Positions 28,737 to 36,044 are shown, counted from the stretch's first letter. The stretch: 64,000 nucleotides of DNA from Halogranum rubrum (GCF_900114455.1 NZ_FOTC01000001.1:707058-771057); one strand, 5' to 3'. Program-made: numbers and translations. Notes: generated by a model from the sequence alone, not told the origin.

Positions 28737-30135
28737 TCAGAGATACCCGAGGTCTTTCAGATGGGCCGTCATCGAGTCGTCGAACTCGGAGTGCTCTTCC
28801 TGTTGAGAGCGCGGGAGGCCGAACGCCGTGAGCCACGACTCACACATCGCGGCGAGTTCGTTGCAGAGGAGCGACTCCGCGTCGCTCACGTCGTACGTCT
28901 CGTCGGGGATTCTGAACAGTTCTATCTCGCTCTCGCTCTGCACGTAGCGGTACTCGGGCGTCCGGATGCTCGTCAGGTCACCGGAGTGGTACTGCGAGGC
29001 GTCGAACGCGTCGTCGTATTCGCTAATCTTCGCTAACTTGCTCGCCGAGCGAGCGCCACCGCGTTGGGTTACGGCGAACTCGCGTTCGCCGTCGCGGAGG
29101 TCGATGCCGACGGGGACGTCGGCGTCGACGCCAACCTCGTTGAGGACGGTCCGCATCGCGTCGGCGTGCTGGACGAGTTCGTCGTGCGTGCCGGAGAGAC
29201 CGGAGACACCCGCGACGACGAGCGGCACGTGCGAGACGGCGTCGTTCACGACGATCATGTGGGCGAGTAACCCGTGTTCACCGAGTAGTTCGCCGTGGTC
29301 GGAGGTGACGACGACGATGGGGTCGTCGAGGCGAGACTCGGCGTACTCGACGATTTTCCGAGCGGTGTCGTCGACGTGGCAGATGCCCGCGTCGTACATC
29401 GCGTGGATGGCGCTCCACTCGTCGTCGGCGAACGGGACGCCCCGAGCGATGTGTCCGTGGAGGTCCGACGACATGTCCATCGAGACGTCGAGCGCCTCGT
29501 CGGTAGACATCTCGTAGCCGTCGGCGAAGCGGTTCTGGTACGGTTTCGGCGGGTGGTAGGGGTGGTGGCTGTCGCCGAGGTGGACGTACAGGAACAACGG
29601 TTGGTGCTCGGCGGCGGCGGCGTCGACGTTGTCGCTTCGCGAGTGCGACGTTGAGGTAGCCGATAGAGTGTTTCGGCGTGTCGCGGGTGAACCCCGCCGA
29701 GTGGTGGTTGATACCGGCGAGGTAGCGAACCATCGTCGGGAGGCCCGCCTCCTTCAAGAGCGTCTCCTTCCCGAGGTAGTGGAAGTGGTCGAACCCGCGG
29801 GCGAGTCCCGTCACCTCGCTCAGTTGGGGGTTCGGCGAGATGCAAGCCGTCCGGTAGCCAGCGTCACGGAGCGCCTCGGGAATCGTCGGGATGTCGCGGG
29901 ACAACCGGGCGTCTTCGGACCACGTCCGGTGTGCCGACGGCGTCAACCCGGTCAGGATGGACGCACTGGACGAGCGTGTCCAAATGTCGTGCGAGAAACA
30001 GTTCGTGAACGCGGCACCATCGGGGCGAGCGGCGAGTTCGCTGAGAAACGGCGTCGTGTCCCGGTCGTATCCACCCAGCGTCGTGTGGTCTTGCCGAACG
30101 CTTTCGAGGGTAATCCAAACAATATCTCTGCTCAT
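28737..30135 (-). pseudogene. Sulfatase-like hydrolase gene with an internal frameshift
   Basis: Two frames together make one sulfatase-family protein of about 465 residues. The N-terminal part starts at ATG 30135 with VWITLESVRQDHTTLGGYDR (metal-binding end) and SSSASILTGLTPSAH where the nucleophile lies. The C-terminal part has FLYVHLGDSHHPYHPPKPYQ, VVVTSDHGELLGEHG and the family tail HLKDLGYL. The frame changes near 29632, after NVALAKR and before NVDAAAAEHQ, and is consistent with one extra base or two missing bases. No long homopolymer is present at the site, although GCC triplets follow. It could be a sequencing error or a true inactivation. The two halves otherwise show no decay, which favours error or a very recent mutation. 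Confidence 0.75.
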
Positions 30136-31985: not shown

Positions 31986-33266
31986 ATGCGAGATGAAGCG
32001 AGTGTCGTTCGTCGACGAACCGTTCTGAAAGCACTCGGTATCGGTGCGACTGCACCGTTCCTGACGAGGGCTGGCACGTCTGTCGCAACCGCCGTGACTG
32101 GTTCGGAACCGTGGACGGTTGCCGTCCTCCCCGACACACAGAAGTACGCGGAGTCGTCGTCGCTCATCGAGTACGCCTACGCCCAGACGGAGTGGATTGC
32201 CGACAACGCTGGCTCGGAGAACATCGAGTTCGTCACGCACGTGGGCGACCTCGTAGAGACTGCCGAGAACGTAGACGAGTGGGAGCGAATCGACGACGTG
32301 ATGGGACGGTTGGACGACGTCAACCTCCCGTACTCGACGGTTCCCGGCAACCACGATTGGGTTCGTGAAGGAACGTGGGGAGTGAGAAGCATCGAGAACT
32401 ACCGGCAGTACTTCGGTCCGGACCGGTACGCAGGACAGAGTTGGTACGGCGGGAGCGGTCCCGACGGGTTGAGTCACTACCAGTTCTTCTCGGCCGGTGG
32501 TTACGAGTTCCTCCACCTCGCCCTCGAGTGGGAAGTTCCCGGCAGCATCAACGACGCAGAGACACCGTTTGGCTGGGCGCACGAGATACTTCAGCAGTAC
32601 CCCGACCATCCAACTATCATCACGACCCACTCGTACCTCAAAGACACCGGCGTCCGGATGGCGGGAATCGATGGTGAGTGGGGTGAAACGACTATCGGCG
32701 GCGAACCCGACGACAATCGCCCGAACGGGAATTCCGGCGGCAGGACGTGGAAGGAACTCATCCGGTCGAACAGCCAGGTGTTCATGATCTTCAACGGTCA
32801 CTTCACCGACATCGACGGTGAAGCTCACCAAATCTCAGAGAACGACGACGGCCTCGATGTTTACGAGATGGTGGCCGATTATCAGGACCGTTCACACGGT
32901 GGCGACGGCTGGATGCGACTGCTCACCTTCCAACCCGGCGGCGGGTCCGACGACAACGACCGGATTCTCGTCCAAACGTACTCGCCGTCGCTCGACGAGT
33001 TCGAGGACGACAGCGACAGCGAGTTCAGTTTCGACCTCGACTTCGCAGAGCGCTTCGGCGCGAGCGAAGAACCAGAACCGGAGACGCCCATAACCGGCGA
33101 CGTCGACGATGACGGCGACGTCGACGACGACGACGTCAGAGAGGTCCAACAGTACATCGCGAAGAAGAACGACGACATCGACGTCGAGGCGGCGGACGTC
33201 GACGACGACGGTGACGTCGACATCGCGGATGCAGTACGCATTCGGAACCTGATAGGTGACCAATGA
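31986..33266 (+). CDS. Tat-exported metallophosphoesterase with C-terminal dockerin module
   Basis: 426 residues. The Tat signal has VVRRRTVLKALGIGATAPFL (residues 7-26). The calcineurin-type phosphoesterase domain (about 40-345) shows AVLPDTQKY, THVGDLVE, VPGNHDW, ITTHSYL and FNGHFTDIDGEAHQ in the expected order of metal ligands. After an acidic Pro/Glu linker (EEPEPETPITG) the last 55 residues form two F-hand calcium loops, DVDDDGDVDDDD and DVDDDGDVDIADAVRIRNL, each followed by a helix. That is the layout of a type-I dockerin. The stop overlaps the ATG of the cohesin gene (ATGA). Inference: an exported enzyme docks to the adjacent membrane-anchored scaffold. Confidence 0.88.
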   Translation: MRDEASVVRRRTVLKALGIGATAPFLTRAGTSVATAVTGSEPWTVAVLPDTQKYAESSSLIEYAYAQTEWIADNAGSENIEFVTHVGDLVETAENVDEWERIDDVMGRLDDVNLPYSTVPGNHDWVREGTWGVRSIENYRQYFGPDRYAGQSWYGGSGPDGLSHYQFFSAGGYEFLHLALEWEVPGSINDAETPFGWAHEILQQYPDHPTIITTHSYLKDTGVRMAGIDGEWGETTIGGEPDDNRPNGNSGGRTWKELIRSNSQVFMIFNGHFTDIDGEAHQISENDDGLDVYEMVADYQDRSHGGDGWMRLLTFQPGGGSDDNDRILVQTYSPSLDEFEDDSDSEFSFDLDFAERFGASEEPEPETPITGDVDDDGDVDDDDVREVQQYIAKKNDDIDVEAADVDDDGDVDIADAVRIRNLIGDQ

Positions 33267-34828
33267 CGACGCGTTCACCACTGACGCGACTCCTCTCGGT
33301 GCTGCTCGTCCTCGCGGTGACGCTCGGGACGATACAAGGTTTCGCCGTCGTGAGTGCAGCGACTCCGACGGTCGGAATCAGCGAGACTGCGGGGTCGACA
33401 GATGGCGGTCCAATCGAACGGACAGCCGGTGAGACGGCGACGCTCGTCGTCTGGTCGGACGCCGAGTCCGTCGGCGGCTATCAGACGACTGTCGAGTTCG
33501 ACCCGGACGTCGTGCAAGTTACCGCTGTCTCGGGGACTGACGATTTCGACGGTCCCGTCCACGAGACAGACAACGACGAGGGGTGGGTCACGCTCAACCA
33601 ACTCCACGATTCGAGCGCCGATAGCCCGGCGCTCGCGCACATCACCTTCGAGTTCGTGGGGTCCGCAGAGGCGCAGTCGCCCATCTCACTCGTCGAAGAC
33701 GAGACGAAACTCTCGGACGCCGAGGGGAACGAAATCGGTGTCGAAGACTACCAGGATACCTCGGCTTCTGTCGTCTCACCGACGCCGGACCCGACCGAGA
33801 CACCGACGCAGACGCCGGACCCAACCGAAACGCCGACACAGACGCCGGACCCAACCGAGACGCCGACGCAGACGCCGGACCCAACCGAGACGCCGACGCA
33901 GACACCGACGCAGACGCCCGAACCGACCGAGACACCGACGCAGACACCGGACCCAACCGAGACGCCGACGCAGACGCCCGAACCGACCGAGACACCGACG
34001 CAGACACCGACTGAGACGCCGGAGGCGACTCCGTCGCAGCCATCGGGTGGAAGCGGTGGTAGTGGCGGGAGTGGCGGTAGCGGCGGTAGTGGTAGCTCCG
34101 GTGGAAGCAGTGGAGACGACGACGACACACCCGAACTACCAGAAGTCACCGTCTCACAGCGACAGACCAGTACGCTCGTCTCCGTGAAACACGGCACGTC
34201 GGGCACGTCGCTGTCGGCGCAGTTCACCGACCTGCAGCAGGTCGACGGGTCGAATCGAGTCAGCGTGAGTCAACTCGACTGGCGGACCACCTCCGAGAAG
34301 CGCCGATACTCCGTCGAACTGTCCGCGCCGAACTCGTCGGCAGGGAACGTTCCGGAACTGGCCACCGAAGAGGCGCACGCGCTCTCTTACTTCACGGTGA
34401 CCACCGACGGCATCGAGAACACGACTATCGACACGGCGACGATTCGGTTCACCGTCGCGAACGTGACGGAGTCCGAGGACTCGGCAGCCGTGGCGCTGTG
34501 GCACTACAACGGGACGGCGTGGGAACGACTGAACACCACGTCGCTCGGTAACGGTTCGTTCGCCGCAGAGACGCCAGGATTCTCGACGTTCGCGGTGACG
34601 GAGCCACCGACGTCGACACCGACTCCGTCGCCGACTCCTGATCCGACGCCCGTAGCGGCGACGACGCCGGCGCAGACGACGTCCGCAGAGACGACGGCGA
34701 CGGCGACGACAACACCGCCAGTAACTACTGACGTCTCGAGTGACACGGGCCTGTCCGTCGTCCTGTTCGTGGTTCTCGTCTCACTCGTCCTCGTCGGGGT
34801 GAGATCCCGAACACTCCGACGCGACTGA
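33263..34828 (+). CDS. Membrane-anchored cohesin-domain scaffold with PGF-pre-PGF-like module
   Basis: 521 residues. A Sec-type signal peptide (RLLSVLLVLAVTLGTIQGFA, about 9-33) is followed by a cohesin-like module (about 35-172): PTVGISETAGSTDGG, AGETATLVVWSDAESVGGYQ, TTVEFDPDVVQVTAV, SPALAHITFEFVG. Next are a Pro/Thr repeat stalk with 10-residue TPDPTETPTQ units (to about 255), a Gly/Ser linker, and a PGF-pre-PGF-like domain (about 290-450) ending GSFAAETPGFSTFAVTEPP. A second Pro/Thr linker leads to one transmembrane helix (LSVVLFVVLVSLVLVGV) and the basic tail RSRTLRRD. It is predicted to stand on the cell surface and hold dockerin-bearing partners. No PGF-CTERM motif is seen at the very end. 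Confidence 0.85.
   Translation: MTTRSPLTRLLSVLLVLAVTLGTIQGFAVVSAATPTVGISETAGSTDGGPIERTAGETATLVVWSDAESVGGYQTTVEFDPDVVQVTAVSGTDDFDGPVHETDNDEGWVTLNQLHDSSADSPALAHITFEFVGSAEAQSPISLVEDETKLSDAEGNEIGVEDYQDTSASVVSPTPDPTETPTQTPDPTETPTQTPDPTETPTQTPDPTETPTQTPTQTPEPTETPTQTPDPTETPTQTPEPTETPTQTPTETPEATPSQPSGGSGGSGGSGGSGGSGSSGGSSGDDDDTPELPEVTVSQRQTSTLVSVKHGTSGTSLSAQFTDLQQVDGSNRVSVSQLDWRTTSEKRRYSVELSAPNSSAGNVPELATEEAHALSYFTVTTDGIENTTIDTATIRFTVANVTESEDSAAVALWHYNGTAWERLNTTSLGNGSFAAETPGFSTFAVTEPPTSTPTPSPTPDPTPVAATTPAQTTSAETTATATTTPPVTTDVSSDTGLSVVLFVVLVSLVLVGVRSRTLRRD
33781..34030 (+). repeat. 30-bp tandem repeats coding TPDPTETPTQ units
   Basis: About eight units of a 30-bp repeat (variants with Glu for Asp and a shorter TPTQ unit) inside the cohesin gene, giving the Pro/Thr stalk. 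The codons are close to identical between units, suggesting recent expansion. It is not a CRISPR array because there are no unique spacers. Confidence 0.85.
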
Positions 34829-35402: not shown

Positions 35403-35741
35403 TCAGCAGTTCTCGACTCCGTTCGAGTTCTCGTACTCTGGAACGGTGAGCGCTATCGACCCGTCGCCACAGACAGTGACGAGACATCCCGCGTAGTTGA
35501 ACCGAAGGGACCGGGTCGCCATCGTCCTGACGGGGGTGCCGAACAACGTCTCTAATGCGTCCGTCTCGATGCACTCTCCGAGCGGCGTCAAAACCGCTGG
35601 TTCGATACCCGTCACGGCAGCCACTGCCCGGACGACTGCCATCGATACCGGTTCGTCACCGGTGAACTCCGTGTAGTACGTCGACGTCGCTACTGCGCCG
35701 TCGGAAACGCTACCACTCCACTCGTCTCTATCTCGTTGCAT
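35403..35741 (-). CDS. HalOD1 output-domain protein
   Basis: 112 residues from ATG 35741. After an N-terminal charged stretch it reads DEPVSMAVVRAVAAVTGIEP, TPLGECIETDALETLF, and RFNYAGCLVTVCGDGSIALT. These are the strand-helix-strand features of the HalOD1 domain, a small haloarchaeal output domain found alone or at the end of signalling proteins. Cytoplasmic; its target is not known. It is monocistronic as far as the sequence shows. Confidence 0.85.
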   Translation of the reverse strand: MQRDRDEWSGSVSDGAVATSTYYTEFTGDEPVSMAVVRAVAAVTGIEPAVLTPLGECIETDALETLFGTPVRTMATRSLRFNYAGCLVTVCGDGSIALTVPEYENSNGVENC

Positions 35742-36044
35742 CTTCGCCTCTGACTCTGTCAAATTTTTGTCCTATCTATGCTTCGGCTGTGATTCGTAGA
35801 CAATCGTCCATCAGTACGGACATCGGTGATATAATTCTACACCGCCTATCGGACGGAACTGTTGCACACGAAAGTGTTCACTTGACGTATATCCAGACAC
35901 TCTCTCGTCACAATGTGATGGCGAAAACCGATAGACTGAGGCGCATTCGAGAAGGATATGCACCGAATTACTTCGGGAAACAGTAGACTGTACCGTGGAA
36001 CAATCGGCAGGGTGTATACGTCTCGAAATCCATCAGATAGAGTG

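Follow-up and report, generated by a model that had tools for sequence, protein, structure and literature searches.

Cohesin and dockerin modules that do not belong to cellulosomes are known from Archaeoglobus fulgidus (PDB 2xdh; Bayer 1999 and Voronov-Goldman 2011, as cited in PMC9012536 and PMC9705933), and the Archaeoglobus pair has been put to use in surface display in E. coli (PMC9705933). According to the account given in PMC9012536, archaeal cohesin-dockerin pairs have been reported as binding, and an earlier survey cited there found that archaea with such modules lack large multi-cohesin scaffoldins. In ANME archaea, dockerins and cohesins occur on surface proteins, some with several cohesins, and the cargo consists of ABC-transporter binding proteins and S-layer proteins (PMC9012536). 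Cellulosomes also include scaffoldins that are anchored by a C-terminal membrane helix, and in these a cell-anchored single cohesin tethers a dockerin-bearing enzyme (PMC11557425). For haloarchaea, the dockerins of the mannan-degrading enzymes of Natronoglomus mannanivorans have been presented as substrate-binding (PMC10963439), a reading repeated in PMC13260240, and a cohesin partner is mentioned in neither.

The locus described here lies in a stretch of 64,000 nucleotides from Halogranum rubrum (the window), and consists of a phosphoesterase gene, a cohesin anchor gene and an HprK-like gene (Table 1). As in Archaeoglobus, the system is archaeal, non-cellulosomal and based on a single cohesin, but here the dockerin is part of an exported phosphoesterase and the cohesin part of a dedicated stalked membrane anchor, and the genes are coupled, conserved in 21 loci and accompanied by the HprK-like neighbour. 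It resembles the cellulosomal anchoring scaffoldins in the predicted tethering of a dockerin enzyme by one cell-anchored cohesin. In contrast to these, it is a single private pair, with no glycoside hydrolase, CBM3 or multi-cohesin primary scaffoldin, and with one cohesin per anchor and a phosphoesterase as cargo it does not qualify as a cellulosome, in which a multi-cohesin scaffoldin is combined with dockerin-bearing glycoside hydrolases. Unlike the ANME cargo, the phosphoesterase comes with its own coupled anchor. We consider it very probable that the pair serves to display the phosphoesterase on the surface, as a private cassette with translationally coupled genes. The coupled cassette, its HprK-like partner and its spread are new, whereas noncellulosomal pairs were already known from Archaeoglobus and ANME archaea; a coupled cassette with an HprK-like neighbour was not found in the cited literature on archaeal cohesins and dockerins (PMC10963439, PMC13260240, PMC9012536, PMC9705933).

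Table 1. Features of the display locus, in window coordinates, and the multi-cohesin scaffold loci of genus g56.
Feature	Position	Strand	Basis
HprK-like P-loop kinase homologue, 382 aa	30330..31478	-	NCBIfam HprK_rel_B; P-loop motif
Tat-exported calcineurin-like metallophosphoesterase with C-terminal dockerin, 426 aa	31986..33266	+	Pfam, AlphaFold2 model
Type I dockerin (PF00404), residues 371-423	33096..33254	+	Pfam; solved dockerins
F-hand calcium loop 1, DVDDDGDVDDDD, residues 372-383	33099..33134	+	sequence
F-hand calcium loop 2, DVDDDGDVDIAD, residues 404-415	33195..33230	+	sequence
ATGA start/stop overlap of phosphoesterase and cohesin genes	33263..33266	+	sequence; ATG 33263-33265, TGA 33264-33266
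Surface-anchored single-cohesin protein, 521 aa	33263..34828	+	ORF, Pfam, NCBIfam
Cohesin module, about residues 35-170	33365..33772	+	sub-threshold Pfam Cohesin; orthologue L104 fold
Thr/Pro-rich stalk	33773..34036	+	68% T+P
PGF-pre-PGF domain, residues 330-446	34250..34600	+	NCBIfam TIGR04213, 37.7 bits (cut-off 28)
C-terminal membrane helix, then basic tail VRSRTLRRD	34748..34801	+	sequence
g56 multi-cohesin scaffold loci	L096 162-6425 with L141/L142 (G264:C1:72000-114000); L095/L140 566-4342 (G087:C1:466000-496000)		

The phosphoesterase opens with a twin-arginine start, VVRRRTVLKALG, and matches Metallophos (PF00149) with 24.4 bits, against a Pfam cut-off of 21.5. Its tail matches Dockerin_1 with 27.6 bits (31.8 bits in the genome search; cut-off 22.9), and is also related to the solved dockerins of cellulosomal enzymes (E 1e-4). 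The two 12-residue calcium loops are both complete, with Asp or Asn at positions 1, 3 and 5 and Asp at position 12, lie about 30 residues apart as expected of a dockerin, and keep their ligand pattern in all compared pairs. The preliminary description of a Tat-exported metallophosphoesterase ending in two F-hand loops thus agrees with our results.

In the anchor protein a signal peptide is followed by the cohesin, the Thr/Pro stalk, a Gly/Ser linker, the PGF-pre-PGF domain and the membrane helix. This is the architecture initially described, except that the helix is a plain one: the PGF motif that a PGF-CTERM anchor would have before its C-terminal helix is absent from the window protein, with SDTGLS in its place, and a PGF-like motif at this end is found in 14/20 of the compared orthologues. 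Taken alone, the cohesin module is borderline, since its match to Cohesin (PF00963; residues 64-158, E 2e-4) reaches 21.9 bits (23.0 in the genome search), below the Pfam curated cut-off of 24.1; of the two Pfam assignments suggested at the outset, that of the dockerin therefore stands by score and that of the window cohesin does not. We identify the module as a cohesin because orthologues pass the cut-off, that of Halobellus inordinatus with 48.1 bits and that of Halogranum amylolyticum with 25.3, and because of the fold predicted for the H. amylolyticum orthologue (L104). This model has the nine-stranded jelly-roll of cohesins, and among solved structures it is closest to cohesins (Foldseek E 3.7e-12); its Z score is 16.2 with 4uyp and 15.8 with the Archaeoglobus cohesin 2xdh, the latter at an rmsd of 2.6 over 125 residues. 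The Halobaculum halobium orthologue of the anchor is named cohesin by NCBI PGAP. In a second pair of Halogeometricum pallidum, the anchor (L107 7291-8340) has a scrambled C-terminal end and no membrane helix; this end and a 177-aa HprK-like fragment in Halorubrum (L077 5318-5851) are probably due to frameshifts or draft errors.

As the preliminary description had stated, the cohesin gene starts within the stop region of the phosphoesterase gene. The same 4-nt overlap is present in 15 of the 20 compared pairs and in a pair on a Halobaculum halobium plasmid, the remaining ones ranging from a 6-nt gap to a 1-nt overlap. In order to follow the two modules, 392 genomes of the order were searched for the enzyme and for PF00963, and named GTDB loci were added, which gave a base set of 20 non-duplicate dockerin-bearing enzyme genes; the H. 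halobium plasmid pair, found in a later independent search, is the 21st and fits the prediction in full. In 21/21 loci a cohesin gene lies directly behind the dockerin-bearing homologue, on the same strand and within 6 nt, so the modules are not confined to unlinked genes in relatives, whereas a dockerin is found in 0/20 of the homologues without a cohesin neighbour (10 archaeal, including the same-genome paralogue L092, and 10 bacterial). Uncorrected for relatedness, this co-segregation has a Fisher p of 1.5e-11 for 20/20 and of 3e-8 when only archaea are counted, and the enzyme identity is below 90% for 18 of the 20 compared pairs. With its recurrence in 21 loci, the gene arrangement is not due to chance. 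In five genomes (G248, G293, G364, G378 and G274) the pair comprises the sole dockerin and the sole cohesin detected by Pfam. The pairwise identities of dockerin, cohesin and enzyme are correlated (0.85-0.93), which we do not count as evidence of binding, since it is expected of co-inherited genes.

The gene arrangement in two relatives allows both modules to be considered within one reading frame. In the H. amylolyticum pair the stop codon TAG abuts the in-frame ATG of the cohesin gene, and in that of Halobellus inordinatus the two genes are in the same frame with six bases between them. We read the H. amylolyticum stop as a residue, obtaining a single chain of dockerin, leader and cohesin (26 aligned rows), as a device that joins both modules for folding and with no claim of natural read-through. 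The preliminary description had proposed a predicted complex, and AlphaFold2 returned this fused chain with a mean pLDDT of 90.3 and a pTM of 0.81, values that come with an artificial linker and no negative control. From the pTM formula we estimate that a folded cohesin with a freely placed dockerin would give about 0.55-0.6, and the higher value thus suggests that the two modules are confidently placed relative to each other in the fused orthologue model. The earlier proposal of a partnership between the two modules that holds the enzyme at the surface is strongly supported by the 21/21 against 0/20 distribution, the adjacency within 6 nt and the private pairs, and further backed by the predicted cohesin fold and the fused model. 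Binding itself remains a prediction, though a strongly supported one.

We propose that the phosphoesterase would be exported by Tat and that the dockerin at its C-terminus, which would hold two calcium ions in its fold, would dock onto the single cohesin of its partner. The latter, encoded by the next, overlapping gene, would presumably leave the cell by Sec and stand on its Thr/Pro stalk, fixed in the membrane. An enzyme that has no membrane anchor would in this way be kept at the cell surface. We infer this location, and also that the overlap serves to co-translate the two genes. Such a cassette would represent a minimal system, found in nature, for displaying enzymes at high salt, and a private cohesin-dockerin pair of use in protein engineering.

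The model of the phosphoesterase (pLDDT 86, pTM 0.88) has a calcineurin-like fold, whose nearest solved folds are those of Lmo2642, GpdQ, Rv0805 and purple acid phosphatases; profile searches of the PDB did not place the catalytic domain, which was placed by Foldseek. The window enzyme lacks the complete two-metal site (DxH, GD, GNH, H, GHxH). Throughout the family DTQ occupies the DxH position, while GD, GNHD, TTH and the first His of GHxH are retained, and the last residue of GHxH varies among relatives and is T in the window protein. The M1 metal site is thus altered, and catalytic activity is therefore not certain. In many orthologues a CBM96 lies between enzyme and dockerin. The paralogue L092 6145-7983 (G000:C6:1575762-1576847), encoded elsewhere in the same genome and 72-73% identical to the window phosphoesterase, has a CBM96 and no dockerin; it represents a natural counterpart of the anchored enzyme that is either free or bound to glycan.

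The third gene, overlooked in the preliminary description, encodes a protein that matches HprK_rel_B (TIGR04355) with 27.2 bits (E 2e-6), against an equivalog cut-off of 200 bits, which indicates a relation at the superfamily level only; it has no Pfam match, and profile searches of the PDB gave no placement. With the HprK-related kinases (TIGR04355, TIGR04352) it has in common a Walker A GKT and a later DD motif, and in the family of the window protein the P-loop GKTNTL and the motif DDRLWV are invariant. The protein scores far below the level set for these kinases (27 versus 200 bits), lacks a Pfam match and represents a new subfamily. A gene of this kind (about 380 aa) is found beside the pair in 17/20 loci, or 18/21 with the H. 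halobium plasmid, a count that includes the 177-aa Halorubrum fragment. It is present in 20 of the 392 genomes, among them 14 of the 16 that bear the pair (hypergeometric 2e-19, uncorrected for relatedness). The gene is not exclusive to the cassette, as a few genomes carry it without one, including one copy within a glycan locus. In L074/L106 it adjoins one phosphoesterase that has extra CBM96-like domains in place of the dockerin.

The substrate was previously suggested to be a phosphorylated surface polymer, from the position of the pair within a glycan locus, an idea for which we find partial support. Sulfatase, glycosyltransferase and sugar-nucleotide genes indeed flank about half of the pair loci, including that of the window, and the CBM96 of many orthologues and the conserved HprK-like gene point in the same direction; the Haloarcula loci, in contrast, have no glycan-gene neighbourhood in our comparison of neighbours, and the glycan context is thus not a universal feature of the cassette. 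These same Haloarcula loci are compatible with another role, in which external phosphoesters give the anchored enzyme a source of phosphate to scavenge and the cell's own glycan is not edited, as would also suit a Tat-exported calcineurin-like phosphoesterase with GpdQ and purple acid phosphatases among its nearest folds. We regard scavenging as a real possibility that falls somewhat short of an even chance, since it does not account for an HprK-like neighbour conserved in 18/21 loci, nor for the CBM96 modules and for the glycan-related genes beside about half of the loci. Taking into account the CBM96, these neighbours, the altered metal site and the Haloarcula loci, we consider phosphate editing of a surface glycan by the phosphoesterase no more than plausible. 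With lower confidence than for the display itself, the enzyme may act as a phosphate editor of a surface or exported glycan, and its HprK-like neighbour may be a cytoplasmic kinase acting in the same substrate pathway. A wider reading, which we offer tentatively and consider rather unlikely as a whole, is that this kinase adds phosphate to a sugar or polymer precursor and that the anchored phosphoesterase takes this phosphate off or trims it, the whole forming a cell-surface phosphate-editing module, and that the haloarchaeal pairs of dockerin enzyme and cohesin anchor are an interchangeable display kit that extends to the multi-cohesin scaffolds of proteases. The link between the surface phosphoesterase and the conserved HprK-like gene is testable.

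How private the pair is depends on the other modules that a cell encodes. A search for further dockerin proteins in the window genome, as the preliminary description had suggested, retrieved three more over the cut-off, which are possible competitors for the cohesin socket, and the C6:934-951 kb cluster of this genome has dockerins together with weakly cohesin-like modules; true multi-cohesin scaffolds are present in G087 and G264. The dockerin could accordingly bind other cohesins, or the anchor recruit other dockerins, the pair then being a node of a small multi-enzyme complex. We find this improbable, since five genomes have this dockerin and this cohesin only, the other dockerins of the window genome differ at the usual recognition positions (as read by eye), and PF00963 detects in that genome only the present cohesin and one weak match. 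The weak match (C12:53274, E 0.009) was judged spurious, as the region encodes a DUF58-type protein. The modules in the C6:934-951 kb cluster have no Pfam cohesin score and an hhalign probability of 60%. The proteins encoded in this cluster (L008, G000:C6:934000-953500) are secreted, acidic and very large, and carry PKD, CARDB-like and malectin domains; two of the proteins end in dockerins, and several have the modules weakly similar to cohesins.

That the dockerin is instead a tail stabilised by calcium, with a role in substrate binding or structure as published for the Natronoglomus enzymes, and the cohesin-fold module binds a glycan or another protein, with no binding between the two, is very improbable in view of the perfect co-segregation of dockerin and cohesin gene, of the cohesin-less homologues, which have no dockerin and often keep a CBM96 that already serves glycan binding, and of the confident predicted model of both modules together. 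Contrary to the published reading, co-segregation thus speaks for haloarchaeal dockerins that dock to a dedicated cohesin anchor.

The display scheme recurs with a different cargo, as genes for subtilase-cohesin-dockerin proteins followed by single-cohesin membrane anchors are present in at least 10 further haloarchaeal genomes. In L130-L134, L137, L139, L143, L145, L149 and L099, the proteins with cohesin and dockerin have about 1100-1460 aa, with a subtilase in 3/3 of those scanned, and the short single-cohesin membrane anchor is encoded about 60-180 bp downstream. One such cassette is located on a plasmid of Halomicrococcus gelatinilyticus. In L097 4220-6363 (G003), a beta-helix protein with cohesin and dockerin is followed 8 bp downstream by a 208-aa cohesin membrane anchor, and this pair adjoins glycosyltransferase- and asparagine-synthase-like genes. 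The scaffolds of genus g56 have 14 and 8 Pfam cohesins (E 1e-83 and 3e-49), are secreted and end in a C-terminal membrane anchor, which in the 14-cohesin protein is PGF-CTERM-like, slightly under the cut-off. They are found amid a cluster of secreted dockerin-ended proteins, of which one was scanned in each genome and proved to be a subtilase, and by analogy the cluster looks like an archaeal protease counterpart of the cellulosome.

Two other genes were noted beside the cassette in the window. A sulfatase gene on the minus strand (28737-30135) is split over two frames, being either a pseudogene or a sequencing error, and has an intact 470-aa homologue in Halogranum amylolyticum (L104). Directly downstream of the pair, also on the minus strand, lies a gene similar to HalOD1-domain regulators (35403-35762).
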